DNA from: Candidatus Thorarchaeota archaeon MP8T_1
GTDB taxonomy: Archaea > Asgardarchaeota > Thorarchaeia > Thorarchaeales > Thorarchaeaceae
Direction: 5' to 3'
Assembly: GCA_002825465.1 (NCBI GenBank)
Contig: PJER01000128.1
Coordinates: forward strand, 1 to 5,953
DNA: 5,953 bases
A program made the translations under genes and the position numbers. Shown piece after piece: positions 1-5,953 of the stretch. The notes beneath the pieces were generated by a model, which was not told the DNA's origin, did not search any database, and saw nothing but the letters and a program-made list of their open reading frames with translations. Position 1 is the first letter of the stretch. Each line of letters begins with the position of its first letter.

Positions 1-37
1 TACATCTGCTCGAATTCCAATCTGTGGTAGATATGCT

Positions 38-268
38 ATGAGCGAGGAGAGTAATCATGACAATCTTAGGGAAGAAGTTGAGGTTCTTCGAGGACGTATT
101 GATGATCTGAATAGAAATTTCAAGAGACTATGTGTTCTTGTTTTTCTTATATCGATGGTTGCGCTCGTTATCAGCTTGACTGGGCTGAATTTCATTGCAT
201 TAATCGCGATTGCGGTTTTTCTTGTAGTTATAATGTGTCTCTGTTCACTAGAAAGGGATGGATTATAG
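38..268 (+). CDS. Small two-helix membrane protein with N-terminal coiled coil, unknown function
   Basis: I do not recognise this 76-residue protein. Residues 1-30 are charged and heptad-like (NLREEVEVLRGRIDDLNRNF), predicting a short coiled coil facing the cytoplasm. Two hydrophobic segments follow, about residues 31-50 and 52-71, joined by a tight GLN turn, so it is probably a membrane hairpin protein; the tail SLERDGL is short and polar. The ATG at 38 is the first ATG in frame, but the frame has no stop back to the window edge, so the true start could lie outside and the coordinates may be those of a C-terminal part. No clear Shine-Dalgarno site precedes the ATG. The downstream amidohydrolase gene converges on it, with a tRNA 3'-end-like element between the two. 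Role unknown; the coiled coil hints at oligomerisation or a partner protein. Confidence 0.6.
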   Translation: MSEESNHDNLREEVEVLRGRIDDLNRNFKRLCVLVFLISMVALVISLTGLNFIALIAIAVFLVVIMCLCSLERDGL

Positions 269-325
269 TTTCCGACCATTCTACATTTGCACTTAGAGAT
301 AGCTTGTCCACAAAGAACCTATACC

Positions 326-353
326 TCGAGTTCTAATCTCGACCGGTGCACCA
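326..353 (+). repeat. tRNA 3'-end-like element, copy 1
   Basis: These 28 nt have the exact spacing of a tRNA 3' end: a perfect 5-bp T-stem TCGAG/CTCGA (326-330 with 338-342), a 7-nt T-loop TTCTAAT, a 7-nt acceptor 3' strand CCGGTGC (343-349), discriminator A350 and CCA (351-353), followed by CTT. The loop breaks the TTCRANN rule at position 57 (T instead of purine). The upstream GCAC at 290-293 could pair with the last four acceptor bases, but the interval is only about 64 nt and shows no D-arm, so no full tRNA can be folded. The copy is 24/28 identical to copy 2. It overlaps the end of the opposite-strand amidohydrolase gene, whose stop lies in the T-loop. It could be a tRNA relic, an integration scar or a dispersed repeat. 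Confidence 0.5.
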
Positions 354-1763
354 CTTATCCTTTTGATTCAGAGTATTTATCATCTCTATCTTGATCGGAT
401 GGCATGAGCGTTCTATTGAATGACTGCTGGCTCCCACATACCCCGCAGATAGAAATTGTTGTCCGGGAGCGGTGTATTCCACAACCCCTCCTACCATCGT
501 CATTAGTACCTCTATGTCAGCAAGAGCATTTTCTGGAACTGTCAGTGGATTGTCTGATAGAATTACTAGGTCTGCAAGTTTTCCTACCTTAATGCTTCCC
601 TTAATGTCCTCCTGAAACGTACCATAGGCTGCGTCAATTGTAATGAGCCGCAGAGCTTGCTCTACACTGAGAGTCTGATTTAACATCCAATCTGTGGGTG
701 TAAGCCCTAGTTCACCAACCCTAGTGACGGCACTAGAGATCGCATACATTGCTGATCTTTCTATTGCTCCCAGAAGCCAAGGATAATCAGTACTTCCAAG
801 TGCGGGTATCCCTGCTTCAAGAATATCTCTCCATCTTCCTGCGAGGTTTGAATAATTCTGCAAAACCGGAAATGATACTGCTTGAGTCCAGTCTGAATTA
901 ATCCAGCTCAGTTGGAAAGAAGCTATAATTCCTAGATCTGCCATTCTCTGTATCTGGTCGTCTCTGAGCAGTACAAGGTGCTCGATTCGGTGACGATACT
1001 GTTGGTTCGATTGTCCGTCCAATGCTGATTCTAGAGCGTTTAGAACAATATCTGTGGCATTATCAACTACACTGTGAATAGCAATCTGAAATCCATCTTC
1101 ATGAGCTTGTTGTACCAATGAGTCCAATTCGATCTGAGAGAAGTAATGAAACTGATTGACATACCAGCTGTCCATAAAGATCTTCACTCCACCTATCCTC
1201 AACTTTGAACTATATTCCTGTCCGGGTTGATAGGCTTGATACCAATCGCCGAATCTATCAAACTGCCAGCTCAATGGAAGATAAGCATTAACACGAACGC
1301 GAAGGTTGTCCTGTTGATCCAAAGTTATGAGCTCATCCAGACGTTCTTGATTCACAAAGAGTTCAGAAATACTGGTCCATCCAGAGCTTAGTACTGATTC
1401 AATCACTTCTTCTGGCGTTGATTGGTTCACATAATTCCGATCACCTATATGATGAGAATGGGCATCATTGAATCCCGGTAGAAGCGTCCTTCCTTCAAGG
1501 TCGATGAATTGGGTGTTTAATCCTGCCATCTCGAGGATATCATTCTCATCGCCCACAGCAATAATATACTCCCCCTTGATTGCTAGTGCCTCTACTTGAG
1601 CCGGGGATTGCTCCATTGTAAGGATTTCACCATTATGTATGATTATATCGGGCGAAGAATCAGTTATTCTATTCCAAAATCCTTGTGAAGCAAGATACAA
1701 CAAAGATAGTAGCAGAAGCGTGATAATGGCCAAAGAGATTGCATACAATCTACGTTGATTCAT
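333..1763 (-). CDS. Membrane-anchored amidohydrolase family 3 (YtcJ-like) metal-dependent hydrolase
   Basis: This 476-residue protein has a basic start (NQRR) and a hydrophobic segment at about 7-27 that reads as an uncleaved signal anchor, with no lipobox cysteine, so the enzyme probably sits outside the membrane. The amidohydrolase fold follows: the beta-sandwich strand IIIHNGEILTM, then LPGFNDAHSHH with H102/H104, GGVKIF with K194, H230 (IAIHSVVD), HRIEH with H262, and D326 (GSTDYPW), the usual metal and catalytic positions. The C-terminal sandwich GSIKVGKLADLVIL closes it. YtcJ relatives are usually about 530-560 residues; here the stretch between the HxH motif and GVKIF is short (about 90 residues) and the loop after it is reduced. 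The substrate is unknown (amide, formamide or cyclic imide types exist). ATG 1763 is preferred because CGAGG lies 10 nt upstream; TTG at 1784 would add seven residues. Residues 433-476 are a non-family tail. Confidence 0.88.
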   Translation of the reverse strand: MNQRRLYAISLAIITLLLLSLLYLASQGFWNRITDSSPDIIIHNGEILTMEQSPAQVEALAIKGEYIIAVGDENDILEMAGLNTQFIDLEGRTLLPGFNDAHSHHIGDRNYVNQSTPEEVIESVLSSGWTSISELFVNQERLDELITLDQQDNLRVRVNAYLPLSWQFDRFGDWYQAYQPGQEYSSKLRIGGVKIFMDSWYVNQFHYFSQIELDSLVQQAHEDGFQIAIHSVVDNATDIVLNALESALDGQSNQQYRHRIEHLVLLRDDQIQRMADLGIIASFQLSWINSDWTQAVSFPVLQNYSNLAGRWRDILEAGIPALGSTDYPWLLGAIERSAMYAISSAVTRVGELGLTPTDWMLNQTLSVEQALRLITIDAAYGTFQEDIKGSIKVGKLADLVILSDNPLTVPENALADIEVLMTMVGGVVEYTAPGQQFLSAGYVGASSHSIERSCHPIKIEMINTLNQKDKWCTGRD

Positions 1764-1837
1764 TGCGTGGAGGCCTCGTCTCAATATCTTTTGAATGAGA
1801 TGTAGTCTTAGGATGTTTATGAGTTATCCGTTCAATT

Positions 1838-1908
1838 GGTTCTTTCTCGCCTAGGTCAAGCTACTTAGGATAGAACCGTTACGAGTTCAAATCTCGACTG
1901 GTCCACCA
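1838..1908 (+). pseudogene. Possible decayed tRNA gene containing tRNA 3'-end element, copy 2
   Basis: The 3' end (1881-1908) is the best of the three copies: T-stem ACGAG/CTCGA (4 of 5 pairs), canonical T-loop TTCAAAT, acceptor strand CTGGTCC, discriminator A1905 and CCA 1906-1908. Upstream, CTA (1861-1863) and TAG (1871-1873) enclose a 7-nt loop CTTAGGA with T in place 33 and purine in place 37. This would give anticodon TAG (Leu), but with only three pairs and no long variable arm as leucine tRNAs need. GCCTAGGTCAAG at 1849-1860 recalls a D-arm but does not pair as one. The 5' acceptor candidate GGTTCTT at 1838 matches only part of the required GGACCAG. Alternatively GGTTCT/AGAACC (1838-1843 with 1872-1877) forms its own stem. 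A functional tRNA is unlikely; only the 3' element is well supported. Confidence 0.35.
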
Positions 1909-1930
1909 CTTCCTCTTATTTATCACATCA

Positions 1931-1941
1931 AGCCTATATAG
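1931..1941 (+). promoter_or_regulatory. Candidate archaeal TATA box for the OYE-family gene
   Basis: CCTATATAG at 1933-1941 is the most TATA-like string in the gap between the divergent amidohydrolase and OYE-family genes. Initiation about 25 nt downstream would fall near 1965 and give a leader of roughly 45 nt. No strong Shine-Dalgarno site precedes ATG 2009. The box lies 25 nt after copy 2 of the tRNA-like element. It is a sequence match only. Confidence 0.35.
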
Positions 1942-2008
1942 TCGGATGAAATAAGAATGAAAGACCTACCTATCGAGCGTAGAAGATTGAGATATGTGAG
2001 TTGATTCA

Positions 2009-3136
2009 ATGGTGAACGAAGAGACTTGGGAGAGCACAGTGCTCAGGAAACTAGAGTTGCCAAATGGAGTGATCGCTTCGAATCGGATTATGAGGGCTGC
2101 TACTTGGATGGGTCAGGCAGAGCAGGATGGAACATGTGGGGACACCATTATCGAGACCTATGGAAAAATCAGAGCGGGTGTCGTGGTCACTGGTTTTCAA
2201 TATGTATTGCGTGAAGGACAATCGATTCGGCGAATGATCTCTAATTCAACGCCAAGCGATGTTGAAGGTCTGAAGCGGCTCACTGGGATAATTCATGCTT
2301 CTGGTGGTCTGGCCGCAGCACAATTAGTCCATTGCGGGAGCAGGAGTTTGCTAAAATATACTGGCACTGAGGTAGTATTCGGACCTAGTGATATGGATTT
2401 CCCTCAACCTAATGGTGACATTGCTCAAGTAAAAGCTATGACAGTTGACCATGTAGAAAGGGTCACTCAGGCATATGCTGATGCCGCCAAACGTGCTGTT
2501 GAAGCTGGATTTGATATTATTGAACTACATGGAGCTCATAACTATGGACTCTGGCAGTTCTTTGATCCTTCATTCAATAAGCGGCCAGAGGATGATCCAT
2601 ATACAGGATTGACAATCGAAGGACGCAGCAAAGCAATGGTGGATGCTGTGAGGGCTATGAAGAACGCCGTTGATATTCCCGTTCAAGTAAAGGTGGACTC
2701 AAGCTCGAAAGTTGTCGCCCCCGAGGAAGTAGGTGAGTTGGCAAAGAGGCTTGCCAAAGCTGGAGCATACTGCGTTATACTAAGTGGACCTAATCCAAGT
2801 CAGAATCCGAAGAATGTAGGTGAAGCATATTTCTTGAAAGATGCAGAAATCATCCGGTCAGTCGGTCATGATAGTGGTCTCTTGTTCGGATTAGTGGGTG
2901 GAATTCGGTCGCCGGAAACTGTCGTCAAACTTCTAACAGGGGATGGAGATCCTAGGAATGCTTTCGATGTGGTTCAGCTTAGTCGTCCCTTAATTAGCGA
3001 ACCAACACTTCTAGACCGTTGGACCGAAGAGGCGAAAATTGGTAAGCAAGAACCAGCTCGATGCATTTCTTGCAACAGTTGCCTTGCTGCTGGATTAAAA
3101 GGAAAGGTTAGATGTGTTCAGTTTGAGGGAGAATGA
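2009..3136 (+). CDS. Old Yellow Enzyme-family NADH:flavin oxidoreductase with C-terminal Cys cluster
   Basis: This 375-residue FMN-binding TIM-barrel protein belongs to the iron-sulfur-bearing branch of the family that includes 2,4-dienoyl-CoA reductase. Family marks are SNRIMRAATWMGQA (24-37), AQLVHCG with Q105 and H108, ELHGAH with the active-site pair H174/H177, and LVGGIR (295-300) followed by VVQLSRPLI (321-329) in the FMN phosphate-binding part. The usual YGG-S-ENR stretch is altered to PYTGLTIEGR. The tail has C352, C355, C358 and C369 (C-x2-C-x2-C-x10-C), probably a 4Fe-4S site; FadH uses C-x2-C-x3-C-x11-C. The FAD/NAD domain of FadH-type enzymes is absent. Likely role: hydride reduction of an activated C=C or similar bond in the cytosol; substrate unknown. 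ATG 2009 is favoured because an in-frame TGA lies at 1997. Confidence 0.92.
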   Translation: MVNEETWESTVLRKLELPNGVIASNRIMRAATWMGQAEQDGTCGDTIIETYGKIRAGVVVTGFQYVLREGQSIRRMISNSTPSDVEGLKRLTGIIHASGGLAAAQLVHCGSRSLLKYTGTEVVFGPSDMDFPQPNGDIAQVKAMTVDHVERVTQAYADAAKRAVEAGFDIIELHGAHNYGLWQFFDPSFNKRPEDDPYTGLTIEGRSKAMVDAVRAMKNAVDIPVQVKVDSSSKVVAPEEVGELAKRLAKAGAYCVILSGPNPSQNPKNVGEAYFLKDAEIIRSVGHDSGLLFGLVGGIRSPETVVKLLTGDGDPRNAFDVVQLSRPLISEPTLLDRWTEEAKIGKQEPARCISCNSCLAAGLKGKVRCVQFEGE

Positions 3137-3144
3137 ATTCGAGA

Positions 3145-3162
3145 GTCAGACTAAATCCTGAC
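3145..3162 (+). other. Short hairpin after the OYE-family gene
   Basis: GTCAG (3145-3149) and CTGAC (3158-3162) form a perfect 5-bp stem around an 8-nt loop, starting 9 nt after the stop of the OYE-family gene. No T-run follows, so it is not a normal terminator. Its layout faintly recalls the T-arm of the three tRNA-like elements, but it lacks the CCA end. It may be chance. Confidence 0.2.
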
Positions 3163-3192
3163 CAGTTCATATTGAGTCCTTGCGCAGACCTC

Positions 3193-3200
3193 TATACTAT
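3193..3200 (+). promoter_or_regulatory. Candidate TATA box for the Isf-like flavoprotein gene
   Basis: TATACTAT is centred about 32 nt before ATG 3229. With the usual archaeal spacing, transcription would begin at about 3222-3229, so the mRNA would be leaderless or nearly so. This fits the absence of a well-placed Shine-Dalgarno site: AAAGGA lies directly against the ATG, too close to act. It would give this gene its own promoter although the OYE-family gene lies only 92 bp upstream. Confidence 0.4.
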
Positions 3201-3228
3201 TAGTTGTTGGAGCGACTAGATAAAGGAC

Positions 3229-3912
3229 ATGAAGCTTCTAGTTTTCAATGCGAGCCCCAGGAAATCCAATGGAACGACTGACATTCTGCTGGAAGCATTC
3301 ATTGAGGGGGCAAAATCGTCAGGGGCGGATGTTGAGAAACATCATGTTGTTGATTTGAAGATTAATGGATGCCGAGGATGCTTCAACTGCTGGTGGGTGA
3401 CGCCTGGTAAATGTGCACAACGCGATGACATGGATAAACTGCTACCTTCTATTGTAGAAGCTGATGTAATGCTCCTCGGCACACCAATCTACGGGCGCAA
3501 TGTGACTCATTATTTGCAGAAACTACTAGAAAGAACCTTTGTATTCACACTTCCTGAGATGTTGACCCGTGACGGAGAAACAAGTCATCCCACTAGAATA
3601 CGCAGGTTTCCACGCTTGGTCTTAGCTGTGACATGTGGATTTCCTGATACGAGCAACTTCGATATTGTAAGAGCCCTCTATCCAATGGCACTTCCAATTC
3701 TTCTACCGGCCGCTCAGTTATTGTTCTATGAAGAGGGAAAGAAACATCTCTCTGGCTTTATTCAGGCTGTAAAGGTTGCAGGACAGAAGATTGCTGCTGG
3801 CGAGGAACTTACTGATGAACTGAAAGACCAATTAATTATCGAGTTTTCAGATGAGATGAAGAGGGAAATATTGGAGATGCATAATAAATACAGCGAATCG
3901 CAAAACCCGTAA
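3229..3912 (+). CDS. Isf-like iron-sulfur flavoprotein / NADPH-dependent FMN reductase family
   Basis: This 227-residue protein has a flavodoxin-like fold. The first strand and phosphate loop MKLLVFNASPRKSNGTT (1-17) bind the FMN phosphate, and LLGTPIYGRNVTHYLQKLLER (82-102) is the second flavin-contact loop and helix. Between them lies C48-x2-C51-x2-C54-x7-C62, which fits the compact cysteine motif C-x2-C-x2-C-x4-7-C of archaeal iron-sulfur flavoproteins (Isf), where it holds a 4Fe-4S cluster. Family members pass single electrons between ferredoxin-type donors and acceptors such as oxygen species or quinones; some relatives with the same motif are only annotated as NAD(P)H-dependent oxidoreductases. 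It is co-directional with the OYE-family gene, 92 bp apart, and could be its electron partner (inference). The C-terminal 60 residues are helical and charged. The stop overlaps an ATG at 3912 that is not a real start. Confidence 0.88.
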   Translation: MKLLVFNASPRKSNGTTDILLEAFIEGAKSSGADVEKHHVVDLKINGCRGCFNCWWVTPGKCAQRDDMDKLLPSIVEADVMLLGTPIYGRNVTHYLQKLLERTFVFTLPEMLTRDGETSHPTRIRRFPRLVLAVTCGFPDTSNFDIVRALYPMALPILLPAAQLLFYEEGKKHLSGFIQAVKVAGQKIAAGEELTDELKDQLIIEFSDEMKREILEMHNKYSESQNP

Positions 3913-3965
3913 TGAAATCTACAGTCTTCTTGTACATCCCAAGGCTTATCGAGCGACTCAGATAT

Positions 3966-4493
3966 TCAATCAGCTATTCTATTTCCCAATTCATAGAAGT
4001 TGAAATCGCCACCGATGGCCCAAATGAGAGGGTGAACCTTTCTCATGTCCAATTTGCCATTTACAAGTGCATTGGTATCAACATACGACTTAACGACTCG
4101 TCCAATGAATCCTTCATTGGGATCATAATCAAGTATCTCTGTGACTTCGCACTCCATATTCAACGGACATTCTTGAACCATCGGAGCAGTTTTCAACTCA
4201 CCATAGAAGGTCGTAAAGAGTGTTGATTTGTCCTTATCACGGCCAGATATGCTTCCACAAAGTTTTGTCTTCTCGAAGATTGACACTGAGGGTATGTTTA
4301 CACTGAAAGTCATGTTTTCATGAATACCCTTACTTGTGTAGCGTTTTTTATACAGACTGAAGAAGATGTGTCTTCCGAAATTGAATGGTGAGATGTATCC
4401 AATCACAAGATAATTTGGCCTACCATTAACTAGGGCTCCCACTAACGCAACGGGCAATGGGCTGAGGATGTTCCCTTCCATTTCATTTTTCAT
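3966..4493 (-). CDS. Flavoredoxin-like flavin reductase domain protein (FMN-binding split barrel)
   Basis: This 175-residue protein spans one flavin-reductase-like split barrel, about the normal length for flavoredoxins. Family marks in order are PVALVGALVNGRPNYLVIGY (14-33, the first two strands), KKRYTSKGIHEN (49-60, the FMN-contacting R-x-T segment and helix), FSVNIPS (63-69), KLCGSISGRDKDK (77-89), and PLNMECEV (110-117). Such proteins bind FMN and act as electron carriers or NAD(P)H:flavin reductases that feed partner enzymes in the cytosol. The start lies 32 bp after the nitroreductase stop on the same strand, so the two genes probably form an operon. It converges with the Isf-like gene, with 53 bp between stops and no obvious T-rich terminator for either. 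ATG 4493 has only a weak AAAG upstream; ATG 4481 is the alternative start. Confidence 0.87.
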   Translation of the reverse strand: MKNEMEGNILSPLPVALVGALVNGRPNYLVIGYISPFNFGRHIFFSLYKKRYTSKGIHENMTFSVNIPSVSIFEKTKLCGSISGRDKDKSTLFTTFYGELKTAPMVQECPLNMECEVTEILDYDPNEGFIGRVVKSYVDTNALVNGKLDMRKVHPLIWAIGGDFNFYELGNRIAD

Positions 4494-4525
4494 CTTTAGC
4501 GACCAACATCGATCAGATCATAGAC

Positions 4526-5140
4526 TCATTTCAAACTGTATCCATATGCTTCAGAGAACGCTAACTCACTAAGTGCCTTGGTAGACCTAGGTGAAGGAAC
4601 TTCATCTGGAACTCCAAGTGTTACTAACGCAACAATATCGACGGATTCTGGAATCCGAAGAGCAGTCTTGACAGCAGCAATGTTTCCACTATTCCGTGAG
4701 TCCAACATAGCTACCCAACATGAACCATATCCGAGAGCAGTCGCAGCCAGCACAAGATGTTCTGTAGAAATCATTGTGTCTTGCACATGCCACATGGATG
4801 GATTACCAGGGCAGCAGGAGGCTGCTTTATTTGCCATAGCGATTATTACTGCTTTTGCATTGGCAATGAACTTTTGTCCACCTGCTACAAGTGATAATAG
4901 TCCTATTGTATCTGGGTCCTTTACAGCAATGAAGCGCCACGGCTGTGTGTTATTTGTTGAAGGTGCAAGCCGAGCTGCTTCAAGCATCATATTGATGTGC
5001 TCATCTGGTATTTCAACGTCTTTGTATTTTCGTATACTTCTCCGTCTTGAAACTACATCAAAGAATTTCTCATTCTGAGTTTCTTCCTCAGCCATTGCAG
5101 AGAGATTGCTATTCGTCACTGGTAATGAGGTTCTTCTCAT
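4526..5140 (-). CDS. Nitroreductase-family FMN-dependent oxidoreductase
   Basis: This 204-residue protein has the nitroreductase fold. RRRSIRKYKD (32-41) is the R-x-S-x-R FMN phosphate motif, LEAARLAPSTNNTQPWRF (53-70) is the flavin-binding helix and loop, and ALGYGSCWVAML (135-146) with LVTLGVPDE (172-180) completes the FMN site. Members work as homodimers and use NAD(P)H to reduce nitro groups, quinones, enones or flavin. One feature is unusual: CC-PGNP at 109-114, a paired cysteine near a Trp-His pair (W117-H118), which could contact the substrate or a metal. ATG 5140 was chosen because AGGTGG (5154-5149) lies 8 nt upstream, the best ribosome-binding site in the window; GTG 5152 and ATG 5095 are alternatives. 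The promoter contains a 16-bp tandem repeat. It is probably the first gene of an operon with the flavoredoxin-like gene. Confidence 0.9.
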   Translation of the reverse strand: MRRTSLPVTNSNLSAMAEEETQNEKFFDVVSRRRSIRKYKDVEIPDEHINMMLEAARLAPSTNNTQPWRFIAVKDPDTIGLLSLVAGGQKFIANAKAVIIAMANKAASCCPGNPSMWHVQDTMISTEHLVLAATALGYGSCWVAMLDSRNSGNIAAVKTALRIPESVDIVALVTLGVPDEVPSPRSTKALSELAFSEAYGYSLK

Positions 5141-5154
5141 AATGTGTGCCACCT

Positions 5155-5186
5155 ATTGGACGTCCTATATATTGGTCGTCCTATAT
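5155..5186 (-). promoter_or_regulatory. 16-bp tandem repeat with TATA boxes in the nitroreductase promoter
   Basis: Two adjacent units on the + strand, ATTGGACGTCCTATAT (5155-5170) and ATTGGTCGTCCTATAT (5171-5186), differ by one base. Read on the minus strand, each begins with ATATAGGACG, so each carries a TATA-like core; the upstream one extends to TTTATATAG (5190-5182). TATA at about 5186 would set the start near 5160, leaving a leader of about 20 nt with the AGGTGG ribosome site. The first unit holds the perfect palindrome GGACGTCC (5158-5165). The arrangement suggests a repressor or activator that binds across the promoter on one face of the helix (16 bp is about 1.5 turns), but the regulator is unknown. 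Confidence 0.5.
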
Positions 5187-5225
5187 AAAATATTCATCCT
5201 ACGCAATGCTAAATTGAAGAAGCTC

Positions 5226-5253
5226 TCAAGTTTAAATCTGGACCATTCCACCA
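5226..5253 (+). repeat. tRNA 3'-end-like element, copy 3
   Basis: It has the same geometry as copies 1 and 2: T-stem TCAAG/CTGGA (4 of 5 pairs), 7-nt loop TTTAAAT, acceptor strand CCATTCC (5243-5249), discriminator A5250, CCA 5251-5253, then CTT and a pyrimidine-rich flank. Loop position 56 is T instead of C, so it would not be a normal T-loop. It is 21/28 identical to each of the other copies. No GGAATGG 5' acceptor partner exists in the 5153-5225 gap. It lies 85 bp before the four-helix membrane protein gene. Confidence 0.45.
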
Positions 5254-5338
5254 CTTCTTATTCGTTGCATTTCTCAGTTTTTTTCCTCACAAGAAACGAA
5301 TCACTTAAACCAAAATCACGGTAGATAATGCGATTCAA

Positions 5339-5794
5339 ATGGAATCGGAGAATTCAGAAACCGAGAAACCTCTCAAAAAATCCAGACGGATGGGAATTGT
5401 ATTTCTTGCATATGCTATAGTGTTTCCATTCATCACTCTCATAATGCCTGAAAACGAGGCTCCAGTTGGTACCGCATCAATCATGCTTTCATGGTTGATG
5501 ATGTTTCTGATGCCCGTTGAGATTCTACTTATCTACATACTCTATCGCTTCTTCGGTAATAGGTTCGGATTGCGTAACTTTCAAGGTCTAGCGGCTCTTA
5601 TGTACACTCTTTCTCTTGCACCATCCATCTATGCATTCGCTATCGGATTTACAGATTCGAATCTACGATCAGTTGCCATACTCCTAGGTCTGATCTTTTC
5701 TCTTACGGGCTTTTGGCTTGCTTTGAGGTTATTGTCGAACCATTGGGATGCTATCATGGCCAACAGTCAACATAGCACAGCTCAACCAGAATAA
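5339..5794 (+). CDS. Four-helix membrane protein, unknown function
   Basis: I do not recognise a family for this 151-residue protein. The first 17 residues are polar and end in a basic patch (KPLKKSRR), expected to stay in the cytoplasm. Four hydrophobic segments follow, at about 18-36, 47-70, 81-103 and 110-131. The loop after the second (GNRFGLRN) is basic and the first outer loop (PENEAP) is acidic, which fits both ends inside. The tail after 132 is polar. No catalytic motif or cofactor-binding residue pattern is visible. ATG 5339 is the first possible ATG after an in-frame TAA at 5306, but it has no clear Shine-Dalgarno site. It stands alone on its strand, divergent from the nitroreductase operon and convergent with the partial gene at the right edge. 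Confidence 0.75.
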   Translation: MESENSETEKPLKKSRRMGIVFLAYAIVFPFITLIMPENEAPVGTASIMLSWLMMFLMPVEILLIYILYRFFGNRFGLRNFQGLAALMYTLSLAPSIYAFAIGFTDSNLRSVAILLGLIFSLTGFWLALRLLSNHWDAIMANSQHSTAQPE

Positions 5795-5799
5795 ATGAC

Positions 5800-5816
5800 A
5801 TTCAATTTTTGTTTGA
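5800..5816 (+). terminator. T-rich stretch after the four-helix protein gene, possible terminator
   Basis: TTCAATTTTTGTTTG begins a few bases after the stop at 5794. Archaeal termination often needs only a T-rich tract, with no hairpin, and none is seen here. It sits in the 41-bp gap between two convergent genes, where a terminator is expected. Confidence 0.4.
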
Positions 5817-5835
5817 CTCATACACTTATGGGTCC

Positions 5836-5953
5836 TCAATGGTGCCCTAATCTTTTGATAACAAGAATACTTCCAATGAATACCAAAACTAGCACTGATA
5901 ATATTGCGAGTTCTAAGTAATACGGATTTGGAGGATACACATGGCGATAGACT
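5836..5953 (-). CDS. C-terminal end of a membrane protein (partial, runs off the right edge)
   Basis: The minus strand has an open frame from the window edge to TGA at 5838-5836, giving 38 residues. It starts VYRHVYPPNPYYLE, a Tyr/Pro-rich linker, then a 19-residue hydrophobic helix (ELAILSVLVLVFIGSILVI), then the basic stop-transfer end KRLGHH. This is the usual form of a C-terminal membrane anchor with the bulk of the protein outside, as in many archaeal surface proteins. The product cannot be named from the tail. The frame is too short to be convincing by length; the support is its clean helix plus positive-inside end and the convergent layout with the neighbouring gene. Confidence 0.55.
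   Translation of the reverse strand, partial: VYRHVYPPNPYYLELAILSVLVLVFIGSILVIKRLGHH

Follow-up and report, generated by a model that had tools for sequence, protein, structure and literature searches.

Copies of a tRNA-Ala 3' end border genes in a thorarchaeotal contig that is probably part of a tRNA-anchored gene-cassette array

The stretch analysed here, which we call the window, comprises 5,953 nucleotides (positions 1 to 5,953, forward strand) of contig PJER01000128.1 in assembly GCA_002825465.1 of Candidatus Thorarchaeota archaeon MP8T_1. Three short elements lie on its + strand, at 326..353 (element 1, core 332-353), 1881..1908 (element 2, core 1887-1908) and 5226..5253 (element 3, core 5232-5253). 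A preliminary description of this DNA had singled them out as tRNA 3'-end modules; all three were found where it had placed them, on the + strand and followed by CTT, and a pairwise count by eye on the 28-mers gave 24, 21 and 21 shared bases, in agreement with the 21-24 that it had claimed. Their sequence identifies all three as copies of the tRNA-Ala(GGC) 3' end, running from the T-loop to CCA. The sole annotated gene between elements 1 and 2 encodes an amidohydrolase (333..1784, - strand; Pfam Amidohydro_3). The block between elements 2 and 3 holds genes for an Old-yellow-enzyme-like oxidoreductase (2009..3136, + strand; Oxidored_FMN), an FMN-reductase/flavodoxin-like protein (3229..3912, + strand; FMN_red), a flavin-reductase-like protein (3966..4493, - strand; Flavin_Reduct) and a nitroreductase-family protein (4526..5152, - strand; Nitroreductase). 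After element 3, a gene for a predicted membrane protein of 151 amino acids (5339..5794, + strand) begins what would be the next cassette.

The resemblance to tRNA-Ala was measured with a query independent of the window, the 22-base 3' end of an intact tRNA-Ala(GGC) from another Thorarchaeote. At up to 8 mismatches it matched the window at exactly three sites, which are elements 1, 2 and 3 with 3, 3 and 6 mismatches in 22, element 3 being the more diverged (position weight matrix (PWM) scores 38.1, 40.0 and 28.8, respectively), and in 300 dinucleotide shuffles the number of sites at up to 6 mismatches averaged 0.01 and never exceeded 1. A pattern derived from the window elements themselves gave three window matches and none in 200 shuffles. 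ARAGORN called no tRNA in the window and Rfam gave no match there; blastn with the tRNA-Ala 5' halves of the compared contigs likewise found nothing in the window. The amidohydrolase open reading frame (ORF) takes its last codons from the strand complementary to element 1 (window 333-353), and insertion sites may thus set the C-terminus of a protein.

The proteins, too, point to a thorarchaeotal origin of the window: close relatives of its Old-yellow-enzyme-like protein, where they have an organism name, are mostly assigned to Candidatus Thorarchaeota. Genome-level comparisons were made on relatives of the window's source, using stretches that were selected because they had several matches and that therefore do not sample Thorarchaeota at random. 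Scanning the genome collection by protein led to one relative locus, L001 (Thorarchaeota E44_bin77), with five elements on one strand. Among the 47 genomes of its family, 43 had at least one match to a tRNA-Ala-type pattern at up to 3 mismatches, a count that includes real tRNA genes, and the reversed pattern had none. A strict pattern gave 0 matches in genome G001; a different pattern, allowed 3 mismatches at most, matched 24 times, with real tRNA genes among the matches. A PWM seeded with 22 elements picked by eye from the scanned contigs, the window's three included, gave 109 matches in 28 stretches versus 2 in the reversed sequence that served as control, so the relatives carry far more copies than the control, as the preliminary description would require of a real repeat.

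Many of these copies stand in order behind a tRNA gene. ARAGORN called an intact tRNA-Ala(GGC) in L063, L068 and L073, and further ones were read from the sequence in L061, L065, G043, G045 and G033, with intron-like inserts in all but G045. Eight arrays headed by an intact tRNA-Ala(GGC) comprise 53 fragments, all downstream of the tRNA and on its strand, although the fragments were listed by hand and chosen for that very position and strand, with one weak site in L073 (8741) left out. Fifteen fragments, spread over 34 kb downstream of the tRNA-Ala, make G045:C140 the longest array, and the 14.6 kb compared on the opposite side of that tRNA contain no fragment. A stretch of 27 bases is identical between the tRNA of G022 and its first fragment; it starts one base ahead of the T-loop and ends three bases beyond CCA, and on both sides of it the sequences differ. 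The one-strand core conserved among the 53 fragments is TCRAATCTCGCCCGGTCCACCA; conservation is weak in the arm to its left, the side to its right is rich in T, and some fragments extend back to the anticodon loop, even with its intron. The inserts of array-head tRNA-Ala genes lie in the D-loop, anticodon loop or variable region and are sometimes retained by displaced fragments; insert-bearing genes occur in L061 (near 5962), L077 (9421), L069 (7880) and L065 (164). In G022, blastn also revealed an extra copy of the promoter and tRNA-Ala 5' half just upstream of the intact gene (L068 12888-12990). The fragments in L150 (G032:C86; 6287-8037), L069 and L070 are opposite in strand to the intact tRNA-Ala, head to head with it, as if array or tRNA had been inverted.

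Cutting the contigs at the elements gave 98 intervals of 300-4500 bp (median 1123), some of which start at an intact tRNA or are bounded by other tRNAs. Whole-interval lengths are nearly equal between genomes (846/846, 635/635, 561/561 and 514/515 bp). Homology blocks at least 200 bases long have 523 ends, and 110 of these lie no more than 12 bases from an element; when the element positions were shifted, 500 trials averaged 16 such ends and never gave more than 35. Orientation was counted on intervals of this size between consecutive same-strand elements: all 61 between-genome interval pairs with at least 200 aligned bases have the same orientation to the array and none the opposite one; they represent 14 families, for which the sum of n-1 is 35. 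An earlier orientation count of 98/98 took in chromosomal genes near tRNA-Phe and is not relied on. Neighbouring intervals belonged to a different family in 63 of 73 comparisons and to the same family in 10 (49 were not comparable), showing that adjoining blocks do occur independently, as the preliminary description had supposed. The chromosomal DNA ahead of the tRNA is shared by G043 and G045 at 93-94% identity. A unit of 514/515 bp, with 92% identity between the two, is placed beside the tRNA-Phe-side flank in G043 and deeper inside the array in G045, with the breaks at elements. Insertion at the tRNA and deletion alone fail to explain this arrangement without a second acquisition or a second copy, and therefore displaced sites probably recombine too.

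In the window, the interval between elements 1 and 2, with the amidohydrolase gene, is 1555 bp long and recurs whole in L068 (1540 bp) and L073 (1537 bp), oriented to the elements as in the window. The interval of the Old-yellow-enzyme gene has same-strand DNA in common with intervals of L077, L064, L001 and L073. The block between elements 2 and 3, in which the preliminary description had placed all four flavin genes, is not one fixed module, as the FMN-reductase-like gene stands alone between two elements in L064 (921 bp) and L066 (803 bp). The 151-amino-acid gene was found at 19 loci in 18 of the 47 genomes, with same-strand elements immediately before and after it at 8 of the 19.

Cargo was surveyed on the array contigs. 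A Pfam scan of 30 of their proteins found NosD-like beta-helix proteins, an Rce1-like protease, a DNA methylase, PLD and TIR proteins, APH- and beta-lactamase-fold enzymes, AFOR and GNAT, and left many without a family. No integrase appeared among these 30 proteins or 10 more, a scan that covered part of the array ORFs. Eight proteins were tested with PADLOC, which returned GajB-like, DrmC/MkoB-like, HerA-like and TIR matches and nothing for three of them. Cargo of defence-like appearance includes a PLD protein with TIR (L073 10048-11691), a GajB-like helicase with a PLD protein (L144 5972-9988) and a HerA-like protein adjoining a 902-amino-acid protein without assigned function (L147 7189-12456). 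The exact site had no match in IMG/VR, and thus no virus carrying it was found there.

Taken together, the sequence comparisons lead us to conclude that the window is probably a piece of a tRNA-anchored gene-cassette array, built by serial site-specific integration at the 3' end of tRNA-Ala. Comparison shows that the DNA lying between two copies of the site is a unit, met again in other arrays with its orientation kept and, for the most part, with different neighbours. Each unit would have been a circle carrying one copy of the site, which site-specific recombination would insert into the 3' end of the tRNA. The insertion would rebuild the tRNA and push the old 3' end downstream, repeated insertion would build the array, and the displaced copies could be used again for excision or re-insertion. 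Of the three suggestions in the preliminary description, the last being a dispersed tRNA-derived repeat, the first two (serial integration scars and a cassette-like recombination site comparable in role to attC) are supported by one-strand arrays that start from an intact tRNA-Ala, by homology blocks that end at the repeats and by blocks that keep their orientation beside different neighbours. In the cassettes examined, the genes are cargo and none is a recognised integrase; we therefore infer, with less confidence than the rest of the scheme, that the recombinase acts in trans or is of a kind missed by the profiles used; gaps in the metagenome-assembled genomes are a possible alternative cause of the missing matches.

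Several observations weigh against the array reading. The searches found no recombinase: PF00589 is present in 18 of the 47 genomes but had no match even at E 10 in seven of the nine genomes with arrays or fragment runs, PF16795 occurs in none of the 47, and PF00239 occurs in 14 of the 47 with no array recombinase found. When 30 integrase loci were scanned for the elements, 29 had none and one had a weak match. Similarity of fragments to the head tRNA showed no significant decay with rank (mean rho -0.21; 548 of 5000 permutations were as low), and fragments are hardly more similar to their own tRNA (identity 0.875) than to the tRNAs of other genomes (0.858). The values for the left core (0.863) and the right core (0.884), with a background of 0.822, do not place the crossover on either side. 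The interval pairs counted above are not independent, and PWM matches at the seed elements are partly circular because the seed came from the scanned contigs. At 11 of its 19 loci the 151-amino-acid gene does not have elements on both sides, and the window itself has no element after this gene, nor one between the Old-yellow-enzyme and FMN-reductase genes, though relatives have a border in both places.

These points bear unequally on the rival explanations. Ordinary integrative elements might have accreted at a tRNA hot spot, each island's integrase having later been lost and the elements being dead scars. The 3' ends of tRNA genes have long been known as targets of integration, archaeal cases of tandem integration are reported in PMC8371274, and the fragments in G033, G105 and G213 do resemble simple scars; however, the intervals are small, conserved in length and recur beside other neighbours, the 30 scanned array-contig proteins include no recognised integrase, and the sites do not decay significantly by rank, and we consider this account unlikely. 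Shuffling of blocks by homologous recombination between dispersed tRNA-derived direct repeats would dispense with a site-specific enzyme altogether, in keeping with the failure of the PF00589, PF16795 and PF00239 searches to find one, and repeats on one strand permit deletion and duplication. Yet a diverged core of 22-27 bases is a short one for homologous recombination, and arrays that begin at an intact tRNA with nothing upstream would be left unexplained, which makes such shuffling very unlikely. Casposons are able to integrate at the 3' ends of tRNA genes and duplicate the target, and a Cas1- or casposase-like enzyme that duplicated its target at each event, as in CRISPR adaptation, would yield the same array order when inserting beside a tRNA. 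No terminal inverted repeats were noticed at the ends of the intervals, in work that included no search aimed at them or at Cas1, and we hold insertion of this kind to be very unlikely indeed.

The remaining two alternatives turn largely on whether the elements fold. If each were a split-tRNA 3' half or another functional RNA, as their tRNA sequence with CCA and T-rich tail might suggest and as split tRNAs known in archaea would allow (PMC3218864), the T-stem should be kept. All eight intact array-head tRNAs have 5 of 5 T-stem pairs, whereas 70 fragments, the window's included, average 2.64 of 5, against 2.58 (maximum 2.76) for randomly dealt partners. Pairing at the shuffled level argues against split tRNAs. 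It also argues against a conserved fold of the attC kind, in an analysis that did not include an attC model. The T-arm layout of 5-7-5 put forward in the preliminary description holds for the three window elements, which pair 5, 4 and 4 of 5 by eye, and is not that of a folded unit conserved across the 70 fragments; the split-tRNA role it had also raised is rejected on the same pairing and for lack of a matching 5' half in the window. Array heads have an intact tRNA-Ala, moreover, and the content and number of elements vary among genomes, leaving a functional RNA with next to no chance of being the answer. A true integron, or a cluster of attC sites lacking an integron integrase (CALIN), could account for cassette arrays without a linked integrase, and archaeal integrons are reported to be enriched in Asgardarchaeota (PMC9668308). 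Here, however, the site is a tRNA 3' end and arrays are headed by tRNA genes, bases across the T-loop show no conserved pairing, and genes lie on both strands; an integron proper is scarcely credible.

The favoured reading, a tRNA-anchored cassette array, can be set beside systems already described. Integrons, including those of archaea (PMC9668308), share with these arrays small cassettes in tandem, mostly of one or two genes, with a common bordering site, together with cassette exchange, fixed orientation and the occurrence of arrays to which no integrase is linked; here, too, exchangeable cassettes keep one orientation to the site (61 pairs same, 0 opposite; neighbours differing in 63 of 73). 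In contrast, a host tRNA gene supplies the site here through its 3' end, with no conserved fold, and a tRNA gene also stands at the head; genes are found on both strands, and there is no IntI at the arrays. The architecture is integron-like, yet two integron-defining features that were tested fail: IntI near the array or in the genome (PF00589 being absent at E 10 from seven of nine array genomes) and the imperfect inverted repeat of attC (70 fragments at shuffled pairing, with no attC-specific model run). tRNA-targeted integrative elements and their tandem accretion, as reported in PMC8371274 and PMC4383910, have in common with the arrays an intact tRNA followed by displaced 3' ends as bordering direct repeats, which we see in the 8 arrays and 53 fragments. 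The units here differ in being about 0.5-4 kb long, set many in series and recurring in other orders, and they lack a recognised integrase in the 30 array-contig proteins and 10 more that were scanned. In the scattering of tRNA-Thr fragments in Caldiarchaeum, integration of mobile elements leaves tRNA fragments and brings introns, and its discoverers hold an element of plasmid type, carrying a pNOB8-type integrase, responsible for it (PMC3293823). Array-head tRNAs here are also often intron-bearing, but the long arrays of cargo units set the two cases apart. Aloposons of Heimdallarchaea (PMC8813620) are mobile elements at tRNA sites in Asgard archaea, with giant tandem genes in place of the small serial cassettes seen here. 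In the closed-looking genome G035, an ORF of 3113 amino acids lies just beyond the array (L139 1954-11295).

Related arrangements occur at other tRNA genes and in other Asgard lineages. In L030 (2354-4078), tRNA-Ala(TGC) occurs in tandem with 849-bp spacing, as two intact copies and a degenerate one, and runs of 3'-end fragments of other tRNAs are seen in L028 (1602 and 2043), L026 (8561 and 9768) and L075 (7960 and 8802), which suggests smaller arrays there. Across the phylum, 109 of 227 genomes had a match at up to 2 mismatches, real tRNAs included. Four stretches from outside the family of L001, chosen for several matches, carry tRNA-Ala(GGC) 3' end fragments: G105, G106, G108 and G213 (L157-L160). 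An intact intron-bearing tRNA-Ala(GGC) is followed by 1, 2 and 1 same-strand fragments in G105, G106 and G213, respectively, and G108 has four fragments and no head within the examined stretch. The fragment core is that of the lineage's own tRNA in G105 and G213 and that of G105 in G108; the one in G106 differs.

We found no report of such arrays in the literature searched, which excluded most subscription papers and all bioRxiv preprints. Tentatively, Thorarchaeota and possibly other Asgard archaea may possess a gene-capture platform of their own, with tRNA-Ala(GGC) as the place of acquisition and its 3' end as the site of each cassette. A recombinase that has escaped recognition would, working in trans, gather small cassettes, change their order and exchange them, part of this cargo being defence-like; the platform could be an independent archaeal counterpart of the integron. 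The arrays motivate a search for a recombinase that current profiles have missed, and they make it possible to test directly whether gene capture of the integron kind has evolved on more than one occasion. If the proposal is true, they would provide a ready list of mobile cargo, and the closest archaeal kin of eukaryotes would gain and reorder genes at one predictable place.

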